From: an uncultured bacterium
Lineage (GTDB): Bacteria > Patescibacteriota > Gracilibacteria > Absconditabacterales > Absconditicoccaceae
Assembly (NCBI GenBank): GCA_946408385.1
Contig: CAMJSB010000006.1
Span: forward strand, 1 to 64,000
Reading direction: 5' to 3'
DNA: 64,000 nucleotides
Made by a program: the position numbers and the translations under genes. Below the pieces are notes generated by a model, which saw only the letters and a list, made by a program, of their open reading frames with translations, searched no databases and was not told the DNA's origin. The number at the start of each line of letters is the position of its first letter. The first letter of the stretch is position 1. Of this stretch, positions 36,040-62,882 are shown piece after piece.

Positions 36040-38505
36040 ATGACACCAGAACAGAGAAAATTGGAAGAAGAACAAATTAAAAACAATTTTTCTGAATTAC
36101 AAAAAAAATTAGAAGATTTAAGAAATGAGGTTCAAACAGAAACAGATAATTCAAAAAAACAAGAAAAAGGTGATGAAATCCAAAAACTAGAAAAAGAATT
36201 ATCTGAAATGAAGTCATTGATAGATACACTATCTTCACTACAAGAAGAAGATTTGCAATCTCTAAAAACAAAACTCGAATCTACTAAAAAAGCATATCAG
36301 GAATATAGATGAGAAGTCGCAGATTTACAAAACGAAAAGGCATCAACACCTACTACATGTGAATTATTAAAAAATTCTGAAACTTACAACAGATTATTAA
36401 ATATCATTTCATCAAATTCAGATAAATTTAAAAATTTGCCGTGAGAAACGGCCGAAAAGAAATTAGAGTATATTTTTGAAAAAGCTCGTAGCAACATAGT
36501 TCTATTTATGAAAAATAAACTATGAAAATCAGAAAATATAGAAAAAGTGATAAATAATACAATTGTTCCAGCATTTGAGTGGAGTTTAATGGAGATGCTC
36601 CGCGATCAATGAAATGAAACAAATATTAGTATGTTGAAATGAATAGATAAAATTTCTTGGGAAGGCAAAAGTCCATTGAAAAGTTTTAATAATTTACTTG
36701 AATGAGTATGAAATTTTGCAAAAAATACTACATGATCTTATAATAAATTTAGTCAGTGGATTAATGCTGTAGATTATTTATCGGTGCATAACGGAATTCT
36801 TCATAATCCAAATAAATCACAAGTTCTGAGTAACCCTTTGGAATTTCAAAAATATATGAATGATGCAAGGTTTGCAGCCGAATGATATTCTCCATATGCA
36901 ACTATATCTGACAATATATTTAGAATAAATGAAAATCAGACTTTTGATTTTGGTGTGTCTTTACAAGAAAAACAAGAAGTTTTACAAAAGATTTGAAATA
37001 TTCAAGTGGCAGACAATCCAAAAACTACAGCATTAATTGCTAAGATATTGGATAAACCTGAGAAACTTTTACAAAAAACAGAAGATTTGCAAAAAACGGC
37101 AAATGGTTTGCTAAATTGAGTTAATACAATAAACTCAGTTACAAAAATGTTTTGAATAGATCTTTTGTGAGAGTCTTCTAAAGCACCAGAAGAGAGGTGA
37201 TTGTTATATAAGATAATGGATTTTGTGTGTAAATTTATATGAATTACATGATGATTAGAATGAGTAGTAAAAAAATGGCGTTTGGATAGACTTAACTTCA
37301 CGGATGAAAAAAATGAAAATATACGTCATATCTTAAAAAAATACCAGGAATTAGCCTGAAATTGAACTAATGTGTCGATTTGAGATGTTAATTCATGTAT
37401 TGCAACTTTGGCAGATTTTGCTGTTACAGATTTAGATAAAAGTTCTGCAACTAAATGAGATCAGCTACGTGATGTAATGGCAGATAGCCTTGATATTAAT
37501 CTTATTTCTCCTCAGGTAGTTCAGCAAACTTTATGAAATGAGTATCTAAAGAAGGAGATTGTTACGGAAAATGGAAGTCAACAGGAAAAAATATTTGTTG
37601 ATGCAGATAAAATTAAGTATGAGCATAAAGAAAAAGAATTAACACATAAACATATTCAAAATATGAAAACTCATCTAGAAAGTAATTTTGATAATTTAAA
37701 AGATTTTTATGCTAATATTAAGAGTACAGATGATATCGTTTTATGCATTACGGCATCGCTATACGCAGATAAAGATGATATAATTGAATGAGTGAAAGCA
37801 AAAGTGTTTTTACCAGAAAATTATGGTGTAGTTTATTGATTAGCATCAAATTGATGATGAAATAGCTGATTAGATAGGAGAGATAATTCATGAGATAATT
37901 CATGAAAAGAAAATTTAGATTCAGTTGAATCTTCAGATAAACAAAAAGTTTCTGAACAATGGATTTATAATAAAGCTATAGAATATGGAATTACAAATAA
38001 GTCTCAAATTGCTTATGTCCTTTCTACTATAAAATGAGAAAGCTGATTTAAAAATCAAAAAGAAATTTGATGAGAAAACAAAAAATATTGAAAAGTTGAT
38101 TCATCTACATGAAAAGCATACTATGGTAGATGATTTATTCAAATTACGCATAAAGCAAACTATCAAAAATATACTCAAATAATTCAATCCTCATGAAAAG
38201 ATTTTAAAGATAATAATTGAAATACTATTAAGTGAAATGAAATTGATTTAGTAAAGAACCCAGATATAATATTAGAAAGTAATGATTTGGCTGTTTTTAT
38301 TGCAATGGATTGGATGAAAAATTGATGACCAAATCGTCAAGAAAGTAAAAAATTAGATCATTATATTAATGACAACAAACAAGATTTTTATAATGCTAGA
38401 AGTATTATTAATTGAATGTCGAGTAATCCTAAATGATACGAAGAGATGGCTAAATCATATCTAAATAAATTATGAAACAATACAATTAAGGACGAAATAG
38501 CATAG
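36040..38505 (+). CDS. Coiled-coil protein with C-terminal GH19-like lytic domain
   Basis: 821 residues. Residues about 1-105 are a heptad-like, Lys/Glu-rich coiled coil (KLEEEQIKNNFSELQKKLED). A long helical middle follows, then a Gly/Ser/Asn-rich linker near 605-635 (LASNGGGNSG, RRDNSGDNSG). The C-terminal domain (about 645-815) has AYVLSTIKGESGFKNQKEIG and AYYGRGFIQITHKANYQKYT, the catalytic Glu and GRG-Q-T-NY signature of GH19 chitinase/phage-endolysin domains that cleave peptidoglycan or chitin. No classical signal peptide is visible, so export, if any, would be by another route. TGA glycines are frequent. Confidence 0.88.
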
Positions 38506-38585: not shown

Positions 38586-38954
38586 TTAAGCGAATAATTT
38601 TACGGCTAGATTTACAATGATATAGGCTAGCAAGCAAATAACAATTCATATTATAGATCATTTTAGTCAATTCATAGCTTTTCCTGATTGCTGTTTATCA
38701 CCTTGAGCTGTAATTAACTGAAATCCATTATAAACCATAAATAAAAAACAACATAATCATACAATAAACCATAAATATTCATTTACCAAAGATATTATGT
38801 CCAAAATTGAACGATTACCTTCAACCTGAGTCCAGCTATGATTAGCAGTATCTTTAGTCCTCTTAAATGTTCGTGTAGTTACTGCATAAACGTTGGGTAT
38901 ACACCCAATTATTGAAATTATTCAAACACTTATTATTCTTTTAATTTTGGACAT
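38586..38954 (-). CDS. VirB2/TrbC-like membrane protein 3
   Basis: 122 residues. A signal peptide (MSKIKRIISVGIISIIGCIP then NVYA) precedes a short polar loop. Two transmembrane helices near 52-78 and 92-120 flank the basic loop TAQGDKQQSGKAMNG. Clear pilin-like two-helix layout. Its start overlaps the end of the upstream gene by 14 bases, indicating translational coupling. Last gene of the pilT operon. Confidence 0.75.
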
Positions 38955-39735
38955 TATTATATTGATCTATAGATAAAGAATCTTGTGTTCAGTCAGGGAA
39001 TTCACATTTATATGTTATTATTCATATACTACTAATATCTTTGATGTAGTTTCATGACATTGCTTCACAATTTTTTTTCATTTCTTCCTCAATAGTATCG
39101 TTTGCTTGTGCATTATCCTCTGTATCTTTATCATTTGGATGCCTTAAATCGTGCCATTCTTTATGTATCTCACTTCGCACCTCATGTCGTGCCATTTTCT
39201 TTCATTTAAGAATATTGTTGTCAGTTTCATTATCAGAATTTTCAATCAATTCTTTATCGATAGTAGTCGGTATAGACTGAATTAGATTGATTATAACTAC
39301 GCTAAACAATGATACTAATATTCAAACAATAACCAATAATACATTTTTCATCAGATTCTTCCCATCTTCTCATTTTCAAGTTTTTATAATATATGATAAT
39401 CCATTGTACAATATCATAGTTACCGATAAAGCAATTGTTAATATCAGTAGTAATTTAGTTACTCTTACAATTATTGATGGAGATCTCTGAAGTCATCTAT
39501 CTGATCAACCAATGCTAGCTTCATATCATCACTTTATCACTTTATTTCATACAGATTGAGCATTTTCCCCTAAGTCAATTATAGTACTATTGTCACCATT
39601 GTCAGTTGGATTAAAAATTTGTCTTAGTAAATCACTAGCCGCGTATGATCTTCATCAAAACAAGAACAATAATAACAAAAACAATCACGATAAATATAAA
39701 ATTCAAAATTTTATTTTAACAAACCGAGTTGTCAT
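38941..39735 (-). CDS. VirB2/TrbC-like membrane protein 4, extended
   Basis: 264 residues. The signal sequence (KFGILYLSGLFLLLLFLFGG) ends SYAAS. A polar region follows, then two hydrophobic helices near 92-115 and 128-152 around ILYNGLSYIIKTGKGEDGKN. The same two-helix core as the other pilin-like proteins carries a charged C-terminal tail of about 105 residues (MARHEVRSEIHKEWHDLRHP). It starts 4 bases after the coiled-coil gene stops. Function is inferred from topology and neighbours only. Confidence 0.72.
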
Positions 39736-39739
39736 ATGA

Positions 39740-40150
39740 CTAAATCTGATCAAGTAAAGCATCTGCTTCTACTTCTTCTTGTTGACGAGAAGCTGATTCA
39801 GTATCTCTAATCTTATCCTGTTGTTGCTGATATGCTCCAGAAGCATAGGTTTCTTCGTACTTTTTTCTAATTTCATCTTGTTTTGCTTGATATTTGGCTT
39901 CAATCTCAGCGAGTTTTTCTTTCTCTCTAGTTAAAATATCTCTTAGCTTATCAATTTGTTCTTGATTCATTAGGGAATACAAATCAAACCAACTTTGTTT
40001 TTCTTTTTGTTCGCTAATAGATTTACTTTCCAGTACGAGTACTACCAAATCTGAATTGAATTCAAGCATATCAGCAGGGATATCAAAATTTGGAGCGATT
40101 CCCCATAAACGTTCTGGTAAAAATTCTTTAATATTTTCTTCAGTTACCAT
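39740..40150 (-). CDS. Coiled-coil protein in the pilT operon
   Basis: 136 residues. The N-terminus is acidic (MVTEENIKEFLPERLWGIAP). Residues about 60-120 are a Lys/Glu/Gln coiled coil (KEKLAEIEAKYQAKQDEIRK), and the end is glutamine-rich (AYQQQQDKIRDTESASRQQ). No signal peptide or membrane segment. It lies between a small basic gene and the pilin-like gene, with gaps of 49 and 4 bases. The family is not recognised; a structural or adaptor role is possible. Confidence 0.8.
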   Translation of the reverse strand: MVTEENIKEFLPERLWGIAPNFDIPADMLEFNSDLVVLVLESKSISEQKEKQSWFDLYSLMNQEQIDKLRDILTREKEKLAEIEAKYQAKQDEIRKKYEETYASGAYQQQQDKIRDTESASRQQEEVEADALLDQI

Positions 40151-41718: not shown

Positions 41719-44253
41719 ATGATATTTAAGAAGATTAATAAAAAAATAAAATCTATATTCTTATGAATTAAAAATAAAATAAAAAATAGTCCGTTATATT
41801 GAAGAACGTTGATTATACTTTTGTTGTTGGCGTTAATAATAAAATGAGTTATAATATATTTTTCTTATGAAAATTTAAATCCACGAGAAAATGTAATATC
41901 TTATTTAGCAAGTGATATTCCAATAATATTCCTTTCACATTTATTGATAATAATCAATTATTGGATAAAAAGTCGTGTATTTAGATTGATAAACGATACT
42001 ATCGTTTTTGCTGTTCTATTGCTGTATATAATAGATATGTTTACTATATTAACATTTCACAGTAGAGTGGCATTAGTCGACATATTTATGTTGTGAAGTA
42101 GTGGATCTTCGTGATTTGATTGAATAATAGGGAAATGGTTACTCATTTTTATAACCGTATCTTTTTTTACATTCTTTTTGGTGCAATCTAAAACGAAAAT
42201 TTTCAAAAAATCAGGCAAGAATATGATTGTATCATTTTCTATCTTCACTTTTATTTATGCCTTATTCTATGCAGTAATTTTTATTTCAAATATTGATTTA
42301 AATTATGTAAAAGATATTATTTCACTGAATATTCAAAATTTTCAACATGATGATATGGAGTCGAACGATGCAGAAGAGATAAATAGTGATGATAATTGAT
42401 ATAAAGTTGAAAAAATACGTGGTGAGTGAAAAGATTTAAACATTATATTAGTTTTTGCAGAATCAATTTCTGCCATAGATTCGGCGAATGCTGGTTGAAA
42501 TAATAAAATGCCACGGTTTGATAGGATTCAAGATGAATGAATTAATTTCACACAATTTATTACAAATTGAACCACATCAGATACTGCTCATATATCTACG
42601 TTATTGTGAGTTATGCCTTTGAGAAATATAAGAGTAGGGAATAGTCCGTATAGTGGTTATAAATTAAAAATGAAAGCTTTGCCAGATTATCTTAATTCTC
42701 AGTGATATATGACTACATTCATTAGTACGGCAAGTTTAAATTTTTTGAAGCAAAGAGATTTTCTTTCATGAGCATGATTTCAAAAAATAATTTGAGAAGA
42801 AGAATTTGCGGGTAGTGAAATATATACTTTTGATTCCGCTCCAGATAGAGATTTATATGATAGAGTTTTGCAAGAGGTACAGATTCAAACATGAAAATAT
42901 TTTATTGGATTGCAGACAATATCATTTCATAAGCCATATAATACTCCACTGTGAAAGACGGAAGATCTTGCGTTGAGATATTCTGATGAAGAATTGTTTA
43001 GATTTTATCAATGACTTCAAAAAATCTGATTTTTTGATAATTGAATATTAGTTATTGTATGAGATCATAGGAAGATGAATGCTGTAGAAGAGTGAGAATC
43101 AGAAAGATTTGGCCCTAATCGATATACAAGAGCCGTTGCAACAGTGGTGTGATCTTGAATTGTCCCATGAACGGTAAATTCTAATATAATTCAGCATACA
43201 GATTTTTATAATTCTCTAAAAAGACTAGTTTGAAATGGATATGTTGATGTAGATAGTGTATATAATGATATTTTTACTCAACAAACAAATAGGAATCGAT
43301 GAATTACAAATTCTTCGGTTTATGTAGAGAATTGATATACGATTTCTACTCTTAGTTGAGATGCTTTATTATTTAAGAACTTATCTAATTTACCGGTGAA
43401 TAATGATCCAATGTATGGTTATTTTTCATCGTATGCATCATTTGAATTTTGAGATGAAGAAGGGGTAACGAATCCAAATCCTATGAAATTTATATGACAT
43501 AGATGAGCTATTGAGAATTCACCAGAAAACACACTAGAATCATTTTTAGCGGCAAAAGAATTATGAGCAGATTGAATAGAGTTTGATGTGTCTTACACAA
43601 AAGATCATAAAAATGTCGTGGTTCATTGAGAAACTCTTTATGCATCAAATTGTAAGAATAGAAAAATTTGAAATTTAAAGCTTGATCGAATTCAAAAGAA
43701 TTGTACAATCAAAAATTGAGAAAAATATAAGGAATTACAAAAGATGTTAGAAGTTATTGATTGATTGTTTGATTATTATTTTCTTGAAATAAAAGTTTAC
43801 GATGAAAAACTATGAGCAGAGCAAGCTTTAGATGCAATTCAGACTGTGAAAGACTTAAATATGCAAGATAGAGTAATATTTATCAGCTATTCAGATGCTG
43901 CAAGAGAAGTGCTAAATTCTGATCCGGATATAATATTTTGATGGGATACTTTTGATGTAAATGATTTAGATTTTATATGAGAAAATAATAGCAAATATTT
44001 CTTAGCTCCATATGAATCTCTTACTCCAGAGGTAGTTCAAAGAGCTAAAAGCTTATGAAAAGAAGTAGTAACATATACTGTAAATGACACATGAGATTTT
44101 CAAGCAATGAAAGATTTATGAGTTCATATTATAATGTCAGATAGGGTAGATCAAATTAAAGAATATAATAGTATTAGGCATTACCCAGTTCCACACAATT
44201 TTGAAAAACTAAATCTAAAAAAATCCTCAAAAATAGATTTTGAGGATTTATAA
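41719..44253 (+). CDS. LtaS-like membrane sulfatase-fold protein fused to glycerophosphodiester phosphodiesterase
   Basis: 844 residues in one frame. About 1-190 hold five transmembrane segments. About 230-560 form the sulfatase/phosphoglycerol-transferase domain: NIILVFAESISAID (metal-binding Glu), TNGTTSDTAHISTLLGV near 280-296 (the Thr nucleophile position of LtaS), FIGLQTISFHKPY and LVIVGDHRKMN. From about 591 a second complete domain begins with FIGHRGAIENSPENTLESFL, then GADGIEFDVSYTKD and VVVHGETLY, the GDPD active-site series. LtaS makes and GDPD degrades polyglycerolphosphate-type polymers or their precursors, so the fusion may synthesise and edit one substrate. A terminator hairpin lies inside the last codons. 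Confidence 0.9.
44218..44250 (+). terminator. Terminator inside the end of the LtaS-GDPD gene
   Basis: AAATCCTCAAAA pairs perfectly over 12 bases with TTTTGAGGATTT. The hairpin encodes the last ten or so residues, and the stop codon directly follows it. The downstream T-run is short, so termination strength is uncertain. Confidence 0.65.
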
Positions 44254-45787: not shown

Positions 45788-46264
45788 ATGAAAAAACTTT
45801 TTTATATGCTGTTAATTGCGATTTTTGCAATTTTGCCGGTGCTTAGGATAAATGCTGAACGAAATTTTCAGAATAGTCCAGTTGGTATTGTCGATGAAGT
45901 TAAGACAAAAGCAAATAAAAAAACATCAACAGAGATTCAAAATACAGATTTAGATGCAGTTACATCAAAAACTGATAAATGTGATATTTCCGTAGATTCT
46001 AGGTTTACTTTAACTAGAACTCTATGTTATATTCAGGAAAATATAAAAGATTACCTACAATATATTATGTGGCTTGGACTTACAGCAGCAACCATTATAT
46101 TGATACGAAATTGATTTAAAATTGTCACGGCTACAGATAGAGAAAAACAGATTTCTACATTTAAAAATAGTTTATTATACATTACAATATGAGTAGTTTT
46201 GTTGATATGATTCTATTATATCATAGAACTATTTGTTTCAGTGGTGAATGTCGTGACAGAATAA
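45788..46264 (+). CDS. VirB2/TrbC-like membrane protein 5
   Basis: 158 residues. A signal peptide (MKKLFYMLLIAIFAILPVLR then INA) is followed by a polar region with cysteines at about 73 and 88 (KCDISVDS, TLCYIQ). Two transmembrane helices near 95-108 and 130-152 are separated by GFKIVTATDREKQISTFKNS. Same pilin-like layout as the genes at 30484-31599 and 38586-39735. First gene after a strong promoter, 29 bases ahead of the next membrane protein. Confidence 0.75.
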
Positions 46265-46293
46265 AAAATTATTTATAAAATAAAAAATATAAA

Positions 46294-47322
46294 ATGATAT
46301 CATTTGTAAAAAAGGGGCTATGATTATTTATTTTAGGGCTATTAGCAGTTGTATGATTTTCTCTGGTCTCTCCAAATTATGCTGAAGCTGTACCTCCAAA
46401 GTATGATCAGGATTTTACTTCAGAATTAGATGATTATGTCATAAAGCCATCTAAATTTAATGTAGATTCCAATAAGACACTTCGTAATAACATCATTGAA
46501 TTATTTTATCCTTCAGAGCAGTGAAATAATCATATATACAAATTAATAAGAAATATTTCATTATGAGTTATGGTAATTTTCATTGTTATTGCATGAGCTT
46601 CTTTATTGCTTAATAAGAAGCCAGATGAAAGTAAACAACATCTATATAGCCTATTATATATTATGTTATGAGGAGTGCTTATTTACATGGCAAATCGATT
46701 GTTCTGAAGCGTATTTCATTTTAATAATGATCAATTCACAGCATGAAATGAGGGTCTAGAATGATTTACAAATTCTATGATATGAGAATGATCGGTGTTT
46801 TTTGTAATCCTATCTGCGATTAAAGCATTTGCATTTTTCTTGGCTATTATCATGATAGTCGTAACTTGATTCAAAGTCATTGCAGCAGGGGATGGAGATA
46901 AATGAAAAAAACTTTTTAAATGATTGATTAATGTGGTAGTAGCATTATTAGTTATAAAATGAGTAGATTTCATATACTACATTGCAGCAGATAGTTGAAC
47001 ATTCGTTAAAAATGCTTCAGATTTTATTATAAATATTGCAAAAGTATTCTGATATATTTATTGAGCAGTTATCGTTCTCATGGTGATAATTGCTTGATAT
47101 CTATACATTACGGATGGAGGAAGTGGAGCTAATTTCAAAAAAGCAAGTACTGTGTTAGTAAATATATTGTTGTCGGCATTGGTCTTATTTGCATTTTTGT
47201 TGATTACATATCAGATTTTTGCAGAATTCCAAAAATGATGAGATGCTCTCGAAATTACAAATGAGGAAGCTATATCTTGAGAACAGGCCTTTCTTATTAC
47301 AGATAATATGAAATATATATAG
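46294..47322 (+). CDS. Multi-span membrane protein, tandem pilin-like or VirB6-like
   Basis: 342 residues. The signal-like N-terminus (GLGLFILGLLAVVGFSLVSP then NYAEA) is followed by about six hydrophobic helices in three pairs. Each pair is joined by a basic or Lys-containing loop (NKKPDESKQHL, AAGDGDKGKKLFKG, DGGSGANFKKAS). This looks like three fused VirB2-type hairpins, or a VirB6/TrbL-like channel component. It follows the small pilin-like gene and precedes ftsK. Many glycines are TGA. No enzyme motif is visible. Confidence 0.75.
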
Positions 47323-59792: not shown

Positions 59793-62700
59793 ATGAAAAA
59801 ATTGACTAGTAAGTTGACTTTATTTATGTTAGCGATTATGTGTATGTTTTCATTATTTACACACGCACAATGAAACAAAGAGGCTACCCTTTTGCCAGGA
59901 AGTGAATTCAATACAACATTGAAAGAGTTTATGGGGGGAGATCCAGAAAATAATATAAAGAGCATAGAAAAATCAGATGTAGCAGCACCATCATGAGTAA
60001 CAACAAGGATGATATCTATTGAAGGTTCAGAATATCCAGTATATGTTTGGAATGCATGAGAGTGACATATATACTATTATTCAGAAGCTGATAATGTATA
60101 TATGAATCCAAATTCTGCAAGGATGTTCGCTGATATGTGAGCTTTGACAAATTTGGATATAGGTGATTGGAATACTAGTAAGGTAACTGATATGAGTAAT
60201 ATGTTCGCCAATTGTAATAGTTTAACAGAATTAGATCTGAGTAATTTTAATACTTCAAATGTTACTAATATGGGAAGTATGTTTATATATTGCAGTAGTA
60301 TTACAGATTTAGATTTAGGAACCTTTGATACTTCAAAAGTTACAAATACAAGTGTTATGTTTGGTTATGATACAAATTTGAGAAAAATATATGTAAGCCC
60401 AAATTTTGTAACAACTAAAATAGAAAATTCTAATGGTATGTTTGCTGGCGATATAAATTTAGTCTGATGAAATGGTACAGAATATGATAATAATCATATT
60501 GAAGTAGAATATGCAAGAATAGATAAAGAATGACAACCTTGATATTTTACCGAAAAACTAGATTATACCATGCTTTTACCAGGGCAGAGTTTTGATGGGG
60601 TATTGAAAACAATATTAGGTAGATATTCAAATTGAGATGATTATAGCGCTACATACGCAACTGATACCGACTTTTGAAATTTAAGTATACAGAGGGTTGA
60701 TTTTATTCCAGCGTGAGCTAAAACATGAGTAATATCTGTTGCAGAATCAGAGTTTCCAGTAATAGCAGGATATAATGGTGGTAATATTATATACTATTAT
60801 ACGCAAGCAGACACAATCTATATGAATCCAGATAGTAGTTATATGTTTTGTACGTTTCCATTAGGAAATTATAGTGAAGATTGGGATACAAGTAAAGTGA
60901 CTAATATGAGTAATATGTTTTATTGATGTCTACGCTTAGAAAATTTAGATTTAAGTGGCTGGGATACGAGCAAAGTGACTGATATGAGCAATATGTTTAA
61001 CTCTCTATGAGCAGAATCGATAGATTTAAGTAGTTGGGATACGAGTAAAGTGACTGATATGAGCAATATGTTTACATATACACAATTGACAACAATATAT
61101 GTGAAGACATGATTTGTGACGAATCAAGTTACAAATTCTGACCTTATGTTTGAATGATCTGAAAATTTGGAATGATGAAATGGAACTAAATATGATTTGT
61201 CACATCAAGACAAAACATATGCAAGAATAGATAAAGAATGACAACCTTGATATTTTACTGAGAAATTGGATTATACTATGCTTTTACCAGGAAATTTATT
61301 TAATACAGAAATAAAGAAATTAGCAGGTAACGCTAGTGCAAATTATGATAGTGATGATATAAACATAATGAGAATAACTCAACGGACTTGAGATGCTATC
61401 CCATCATGAGTGACAACAGGAATTATATCTATGAAAGGTTCAGAATATCCAGTATATGCATGGTTTGAACATTGAACGATATATTACTACACACAGGCAG
61501 ACAAAGTTTATATGAACCCAAATTCTAGTTATATGTTTTTTAAACTAAAAAGATTAGGTTCAATTAATATAGATTTCGATACGAGTAAAGTGACTAACAT
61601 GAGAGGTATGTTTCAAAATGATATAAGCTTGAACAGTTTAGATTTGAGTGATTGGAATACTAGCAGAGTAACCAATATGCAGGAAGTATTTCAAATGAAT
61701 ACTGGTTTGGTGGAAGTGGATTTAAGTAGTTGGGAGACAAGCAAAGTTACAATAATGGGAAGAATGTTCGATAATTGTAAAAATTTAAGAACTATATATG
61801 TATCAGAATGATTTGTAACTAGTCAGCTTACTGGTATAGACAACCCAGATCAAGAGATGCTTAATAATGTTTCAAAAATAGTCTGATGAAATGGAACTAG
61901 ATATGATTCATGACATCAAGACAAAACATATGCAAAAATAGATAAAGCATGACAGTCTTGATATTTTACAGATAAAAATGCCATTACTGTAAAGTTTGTC
62001 AATACTTTAGATTGAAGAGAAACAAATATTACAACTAGTAAATGACATCAGATAGATAATATACCTAATGTTAAGTGATATACTGTGAAATGAGTATACT
62101 CAGATGAAGCGATGACAAAACCAATTGATTTGAGTAACGGAGTAAATTGATATACAAAAGTATATGTAAAATATGAACGCAATCAGTGATGAAATTCTGG
62201 AGGTTCTAGTTGAGGATGAGGAAGATGATCAAGCTCTAATAACTCATCAAACACAAAAAACAATGATACAAGTAATAACGAAATAAAGTGAAATGATAAA
62301 TCAAATAATGTATTATCATGAGCAGATGTAAAAAATGATATAGCAAAAAATGAAAAATCTGAAAATAAAGCTCAAATTAAATATAAAGATGCTAGAGAAG
62401 AATTGTTAGAAGCTTATTATTTTGCATTGATGAATTGAATTACTAATAAATCAAGTCCAGAAAATGCAAGATTGGATGGTGGGCTAACTAGAATTCAAAT
62501 GGCCAAAATGTTATCACAATTTGCGATTAATGTATTGTGACAAGAGCCTGATGTTTCAAGATGAGTTGCGAACTTTTCAGATGTTTCAAAAGAATTAGAT
62601 AAAAAATATAGTAATTGAGTAACTTTAGCATATCAGCTTGGAATAATGTGACAGAATATGAAAAAGAATAAATTTAGACCTTATGATGGAGTTACTAGAG

Positions 62701-62882
62701 CCGAATTCGCTACGGCATTATCAAGAATGCTTTATCATACACAAGATTGAACTTGAAAAATAAAATATTATGAACCACATATAGCAAAATTGTATAGTGA
62801 AGGAATATTAAATAGAGTAGATCCTAAGAGAAAGGAAAAGAGATGATATGTAATGATAATGTTATTAAGAAGTGTTAATTAA
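59793..62882 (+). CDS. BspA-like surface protein with three modules and SLH-like C-terminus
   Basis: 1029 residues. A signal peptide (MKKLTSKLTLFMLAIMCMFS then LFTHAQG) starts the protein. Three modules of about 240 residues each open with TLLPGSEF/MLLPG and carry BspA-type repeats (DUF285), e.g. WDTSKVTDMSNMF, 25 residues apart. An InlB-like beta repeat (ITVKFVNTLDGRETN, YTKVYVKYE) lies near 730-790, then a Gly/Ser/Asn linker. The last 170 residues look like SLH domains (ALMNGITNKSS, RLDGGLTRIQMAKMLSQFA, GVTRAEFATALSRML). Such proteins bind host cells or other bacteria. Strong promoter and terminator. Confidence 0.92.
60511..61968 (+). repeat. Long direct repeats within the BspA-like gene
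   Basis: The stretch ATGCAAGAATAGATAAAGAA and its following 20 bases is identical at 60511-60550 and 61219-61258, with a diverged third copy at 61929-61968; spacings are 708 and 710 bases. It marks the module joints (ARIDKEGQPGYFTEKLDYTM). Shorter 75-base tandem units occur at 60961 and 61036. The pattern shows module duplication and invites recombination. Confidence 0.85.

Follow-up and report, generated by a model that had tools for sequence, protein, structure and literature searches.

One polypeptide of Absconditabacteria (SR1) joins an LtaS/OpgB-type domain to a GDPD domain

LtaS binds glycerol-phosphate through His347, Trp354 and Arg356 (PMC4973235), and in the Listeria enzyme a second glycerol-phosphate site formed by Ser486, Asn488 and His489 is required for LTA production (PMC4192460). 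The LTA made by LtaS is built of sn-glycerol-1-phosphate, whereas GlpQ cuts only sn-glycerol-3-phosphate ends and leaves intact LTA untouched (PMC7086022). The lipids of CPR bacteria are thought to derive from other bacteria (PMC7242380), and those of SR1 likewise (PMC8080830).

Here we describe a gene that carries an LtaS/OpgB-type domain and a GDPD domain in one polypeptide. It lies in a window of 64,000 nucleotides (the whole stretch of DNA that was analysed) from an uncultured bacterium of an Absconditabacteria/SR1 family, a lineage of tiny bacteria that depend on a host. Both halves come from known superfamilies and the sequence records are already public; it is the joined protein that is new. 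No published description of the fusion was found in the open literature.

Reading frame, domains and predicted topology

TGA encodes glycine in SR1 and Gracilibacteria. Under this code (table 25), positions 41719-44253 form a single open frame of 844 aa that ends in TAA, with an alternative in-frame start at TTG 41707, and the glycines of catalytic sites are read correctly, as in GHRG and GDHRKM. The table 11 frame has 45 in-frame TGA codons and was dropped because of these stops. The protein has the following features.

41719-44253, + strand: fusion ORF, 844 aa in table 25 with a TAA stop (open frame; full-length relatives in 22 other genomes)
41797-42291, + strand: five transmembrane helices, residues 27-191 (hydropathy, loop charges, AlphaFold2 helices)
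42439-43230, + strand: LtaS/OpgB-type domain of the alkaline-phosphatase/sulfatase superfamily, residues 241-504 (Pfam Sulfatase, E 4.1e-24)
42460-42462, + strand: Glu248, a metal ligand that matches Glu255 of S. aureus LtaS (23/23, alignment)
42568-42591, + strand: nucleophile loop G284-T-T286-S-D-T-A-H291, of the form GxT/S-S-D/E (alignment)
42724-42753, + strand: pocket stretch STASLNFLKQ, residues 336-345 (alignment; roles from PMC4973235)
42928-42930, + strand: His404, equivalent to LtaS His416 (23/23, alignment)
43063-43077, + strand: D449-H450-R-K-M453 with the Asp-His metal ligands (alignment)
43351-43485, + strand: linker, residues 545-589, of varying length among relatives (model confidence low at 578-586)
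43498-44151, + strand: complete GDPD (TIM-barrel) domain, residues 594-811 (Pfam GDPD, E 3.3e-28)
43498-43506, + strand: His594-Arg-Gly with the first catalytic His (His 23/23, alignment)
43579-43587, + strand: Glu621-x-Asp623, metal ligands (23/23, alignment)
43624-43629, + strand: His636-Gly637 with the second catalytic His (His 23/23, alignment)
43651-43704, + strand: Cys645 and Cys662, a pair invariant in 21/21 canonical fused GDPDs
43786-43788, + strand: Glu690, the third acid of the GDPD site (alignment; Glu or Asp in 21/23)

A reading made earlier from the sequence alone (the sequence-only reading) had described one uninterrupted frame with five membrane spans, an LtaS/sulfatase-fold domain with a Thr nucleophile, and a complete GDPD with GHRG, ENTLESF and EFDVSYTKD. 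This description holds: the frame is unbroken under code 25, hydropathy recovers the five spans, alignment places the nucleophile at Thr286, and all three GDPD motifs are present. The domain search that it recommended puts both Sulfatase and GDPD far above their cut-offs. It had also considered that catalytic residues might prove to be lost, and on alignment they are retained in both domains. Its further concern was a sequencing error near 43480; 22 other genomes with the same unbroken arrangement at 28-76% identity rule this out for practical purposes. More generally, an annotation or assembly artefact that merged two genes has nothing in its favour except the unusual code, and we give it practically no chance. 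The joined gene occurs in 23 genomes, one of them a complete chromosome, each time as a single frame under code 25, and such an artefact is therefore already refuted.

Hydrophobic peaks fall at residues 30-48, 60-78, 95-113, 136-154 and 170-188, and the N-terminus and the loops between TM2 and TM3 and between TM4 and TM5 are rich in K/R. This charge distribution predicts an N-in/C-out orientation, which would place both catalytic domains outside. In the structure prediction proposed by the sequence-only reading, an AlphaFold2 model based on a 23-sequence alignment (mean pLDDT 78, pTM 0.50) is confident for most of both catalytic domains and not for the overall arrangement. Foldseek places VP1736 and LtaP at the top for the front part of this model, and for the rear part it returns GDPDs that include the phage K/phi812 spike GDPD, the T. 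tengcongensis GDPD and B. subtilis GlpQ. Three relatives from one genus (G015-G017; loci L020, L021 and L023) have about 125 extra residues between the membrane part and the catalytic domain. The insert spans about residues 225-360 and is helical-repeat-like in sequence; in L020 no Pfam match above cut-off was found for it.

The GDPD part matches Pfam GDPD over profile positions 1-243 of 244 (99.9 bits against a gathering score of 23.6), and a profile search with it returns GDPD chains as best matches, with 2pz0 matching by sequence and by fold. The full catalytic set is kept in 21 of the 23 members, although Arg595 is Q, A or G in some relatives. The second catalytic His is followed by Gly in 21/23, against the HD of the aligned solved GDPDs. 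Cys645 and Cys662 probably form a disulfide, as would suit an exported domain. In the two other members (G037 and G042, loci L022 and L024) the third GDPD acid was not located by alignment; their C-terminal 230 residues are GDPD-like and strongly diverged (branch 3.09), match no more than the N-terminal portion of the GDPD profile, and may be a replacement of the original domain.

For the transferase side, the family was compared by alignment with LtaS-type proteins of Bacillaceae, with LtaP from L. innocua and with two VP1736-like proteins. The closest solved chains, in sequence and in fold, are VP1736 (3lxq) and LtaP (4uop). Thr286 corresponds to LtaS Thr300 and is Thr in 21/23 members and Ser in two. 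Asp449-His450, kept in 23/23 and followed by a family-specific [RH]KM, corresponds to Asp475-His476 of LtaS. The substrate pocket differs. From the LtaS set of His347, Asp349, Trp354, Arg356 and His416, solely the His416 equivalent is kept, as is that of Phe353 beside the Trp354 position; in the window protein His347 is replaced by Ser336, Trp354 by Leu343 and Arg356 by Gln345, and these three replacements are nearly invariant across the fusion family. Asp349 varies among the Bacillaceae LtaS-type proteins of the alignment. The second glycerol-phosphate site of LtaS is missing from the aligned family, which has DH-[RH]-K-M instead. The HGD..TFWNR pocket of the LtaS type is kept in a single LtaS-like protein from another CPR genome (G536); the altered pocket is thus a trait of the fusion family and not of CPR. 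Because pocket and second site are lost, we name the domain for the LtaS/OpgB superfamily and not for LtaS, and the changes at its counterparts of the glycerol-phosphate-binding LtaS residues mean that phosphatidylglycerol may not be its substrate.

These observations bear on the idea that the first domain builds a polyglycerolphosphate (LTA-like) surface chain that the GDPD then shortens. The LtaS-like topology and the TSD nucleophile loop fit this idea, as do the 8/23 members with a match to the LtaS model of NCBIfam (E 8e-9 at best). However, neither pocket nor chain-binding site is conserved, the window protein has no match to that model at E<=1 and does not reach its curated score, and no member is shown to reach the cut-off. 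CDP-glycerol teichoic acid polymerase genes (PF04464) are missing from 8/8 carriers tested, and the sn-1 ends of LTA-type chains resist the sn-3-specific GlpQ type of GDPD (PMC7086022). The polymerase named by the sequence-only reading is thus not supported, and the synthesise-and-trim role that it had raised meets this stereochemical objection; we consider such a role distinctly unlikely.

Distribution and descent of the fusion

We surveyed 353 genomes of the class, 49 of which belong to this one Absconditabacteria/SR1 family. The full fusion occurs in 23 of the 49, including the complete chromosome RAAC1_SR1_1 (CP006913.1), and was not detected in the other 304, where matches are to one half only. 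A 380-genome sample of the phylum yielded no joined protein outside the family; separate LtaS-like genes and separate GDPD genes are present there in other CPR. A GTDB contig scan with two strict peptide patterns, which distant fusions could escape, returned 22 loci, all of them those of the SR1 family. The architecture had been suggested to be new for CPR, and the survey answers this in two parts: the separate genes already occur in other CPR, and the joined protein is new and, as far as searched, confined to 23 carriers in one SR1 family. This uniqueness is claimed within Patescibacteria, which the surveys sampled. No locus in plasmid and phage records covers 80% of the query. One of the records, NZ_CP030101.1, is a 2.9-Mb Listeria entry filed as a plasmid that is probably a chromosome.

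The listed estimates put completeness at 90% or more for 16 of the 23 carriers. The fusion is patchy: about half of the family has no such protein, among them the single-contig genomes G002 and G003, and some of these genomes are both single-contig and at least 98% complete, so the fusion is not essential to the lineage. Pairwise distances for the LtaS-type part and the GDPD part are correlated (r=0.91 over 21 proteins). In the trees, the fused GDPDs group as a single clade (100/99), distinct from other GDPDs of CPR, and so do the LtaS-type parts (100/100), which stand apart from LtaS, LtaP and VP1736-like proteins; for the LtaS-type clade the program gave a long-branch warning. The simplest reading is a single fusion event, after which both parts would have been inherited together. 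The fusion is real and old.

The exceptions within the family, including the insert and the diverged GDPD-like parts described above (G015-G017 and G037/G042), are single cases and not statistics. One genome (G036:C24, locus L070, 1437-3239) has a second LtaS-type copy, from the same genus and without a GDPD, with Val for the nucleophile Thr (NGKVSSDAH against NGTTSDTAH); it looks like an inactive paralogue. In another (G049:C11, locus L071), a fragment of a second LtaS-type gene (1-732, + strand) lies tail-to-tail with a GDPD gene (735-1577, - strand). The fragment has lost its 5' end at the contig edge and ends before any GDPD. The separate GDPD falls in the fused-GDPD clade and has a leader ending in LLLLLAGC, which by eye is a lipobox-like (LLAGC) lipoprotein signal; this supports an extracytoplasmic location for the GDPD.

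No conserved operon surrounds the fusion gene in the 4-kb flanks of 22 relatives. The genes met there (tRNA synthetase, U32 peptidase, FemAB, helicase, nuclease) change beyond the genus and thus give no functional hint. Within the window, the fusion gene is flanked by two T4SS-pilin/TrbC-type matches (38586-40150, - strand; 45788-47322, + strand) whose order is kept in the closest relatives. The gene at 36040-38505 (+ strand) encodes 821 aa, of which residues 682-716 weakly resemble chitinase/GH19 (below cut-off), and its product is possibly a wall-degrading enzyme. Farther along, 59793-62882 (+ strand) encodes a secreted-looking protein of 1029 aa in which repeated DTSKVTDMSNMF-type (BspA-like) units can be seen by eye in the translation.

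Lipid supply and proposed function

CDP-alcohol phosphotransferase is needed for phosphatidylglycerol, and an LtaS-type enzyme normally needs phosphatidylglycerol. The phosphotransferase was not found in 22 of the 23 carriers by a search that gave matches in 14/14 control genomes and also in three code-25 relatives, whose genes contain 3-5 TGA codons. The sole match in a carrier (G037:C22, locus L066) is a gene without TGA in a code-25 genome, possibly on a stray contig of another organism. CdsA (CDP-DAG synthase) is missing from 6/6 carriers tested, and PlsY and DAG kinase each from 8/8. The window genome is 88.6% complete, and one carrier (G043) is a single contig. Since the carriers lack the known genes for making phosphatidylglycerol, any that is used would be scavenged, presumably from a host or neighbour. 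The use of host-derived lipid, which the sequence-only reading had raised, fits this absence in the carriers tested.

We tentatively propose, with somewhat less than even confidence, that the fusion is a bifunctional, membrane-anchored surface enzyme that would transfer phosphoglycerol from scavenged lipid and hydrolyse glycerophosphodiesters. Five helices would anchor the protein, with both catalytic domains predicted to lie outside. There, Glu248, Asp449 and His450 would hold a single metal ion, and with it Thr286 would attack the head group of a phospholipid. The likeliest such lipid is phosphatidylglycerol, and the missing genes suggest that it comes from a host or neighbour. By the mechanism of the superfamily, a phosphoglycerol-enzyme intermediate would form, leaving diacylglycerol behind, and phosphoglycerol would go on to water or to an acceptor molecule, for which a glycan or glycolipid of the surface is the probable candidate. 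In that outer space, the tethered GDPD would cleave glycerophosphodiesters and release glycerol phosphate; its targets may be surface phosphoglycerol groups or deacylated lipid head groups. The net role would be to redistribute phosphoglycerol among scavenged lipid, cell surface and medium. As the fusion has neither the LtaS-specific pocket nor the chain-binding site, single transfers seem likelier than a long polyglycerolphosphate chain. The data show the residues of both active sites, the predicted topology, the joint inheritance of the parts and the missing lipid genes; we infer the substrate, the acceptor and the cooperation between the halves. The two halves might not use each other's products: transfer from phosphatidylglycerol gives sn-glycerol-1-phosphate and a GlpQ-type enzyme needs sn-3, so unless the stereochemistry of this GDPD differs, the halves would act on different substrates, for example intact lipid and deacylated head groups.

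The same domains could instead be turned against prey, stripping phospholipid head groups and glycerophosphodiesters (or teichoic acids) at the contact site, so that the prey envelope would be weakened and glycerol phosphate and diacylglycerol gained. Among SR1 relatives, the predator Vampirococcus is described as lacking phospholipid synthesis and as encoding a phospholipase with predicted secretion (PMC8080830), and phage tail spikes carry the same GDPD fold to the bacterial surface. However, a five-helix anchor in the cell's own membrane restricts reach, and the carriers have no PlsY or DAG kinase with which to recycle the products into lipids; we regard such feeding as unlikely. It is also conceivable that imported phospholipids are converted to diacylglycerol to suit a tiny and highly curved cell and that the GDPD disposes of the head groups. 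The carriers do lack lipid synthesis genes, and CPR-rich fractions are enriched in unusual (lyso) lipids (PMC7242380), but the chemistry yields diacylglycerol and not lysolipids, and we judge this remodelling improbable.

A bolder and rather doubtful reading is that the fusion represents a lineage-specific class, in which a lipid-head-group transferase with a re-made pocket and its tethered phosphodiesterase work as one unit on foreign lipids. On that reading, doubtful to the same degree, the fusion would serve a lipid-auxotrophic epibiont as a device dedicated to reworking, at the cell's own surface, phospholipid stolen from another organism. The question bears on how CPR bacteria without lipid synthesis get and adapt their membranes. 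Because LtaS-type enzymes normally depend on phosphatidylglycerol, for which the carriers tested lack any known route, the fusion provides a testable handle on foreign-lipid use and on SR1 surface chemistry, and the joined GDPD lets one ask whether a single polypeptide both places and removes phosphoglycerol.

Comparison with known systems

The lipoteichoic acid synthase LtaS and the primase LtaP of Bacillota share with the fusion the five helices and outer catalytic domain, the Thr nucleophile in a G-x-T-S-D loop, the Glu and Asp-His metal ligands and the His416 equivalent. Unlike them, the fusion lacks equivalents of His347, Trp354 and Arg356 as well as the Ser..Asn-His chain site, and it has a C-terminal GDPD; the window protein does not match the LtaS model. 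In Pseudomonadota, among phosphoglycerol transferase I (OpgB/MdoB) and proteins resembling VP1736, VP1736 itself is the nearest solved chain, and PRK12363 is the best NCBIfam match on the transferase side. However, the fusion falls far under the OpgB/MdoB model cut-offs (40 and 33 bits against 572 and 574), the aligned VP1736-like loop is GTRSxRG where the fusion has GxTSDxxH, and these proteins have no GDPD.

The GDPD family (GlpQ, UgpQ, 2pz0) resembles the rear half in the full-length Pfam match, both His residues, the Glu-x-Asp and the third acid (21/23), whereas the HG (21/23), the Cys pair, the LtaS-type tether and a clade of its own set the fusion apart. The spike of Staphylococcus phage phi812/K (9eul, 9f5m) likewise has a GDPD on a protein that acts outside the bacterial cell, but the match is limited to the GDPD part and the remaining spike is unmatched. 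Finally, YejM/PbgA/LapC, among the Foldseek matches, has the same architecture of membrane part and sulfatase fold; PbgA is without a metal site (PMC4973235), whereas that of the fusion is intact.
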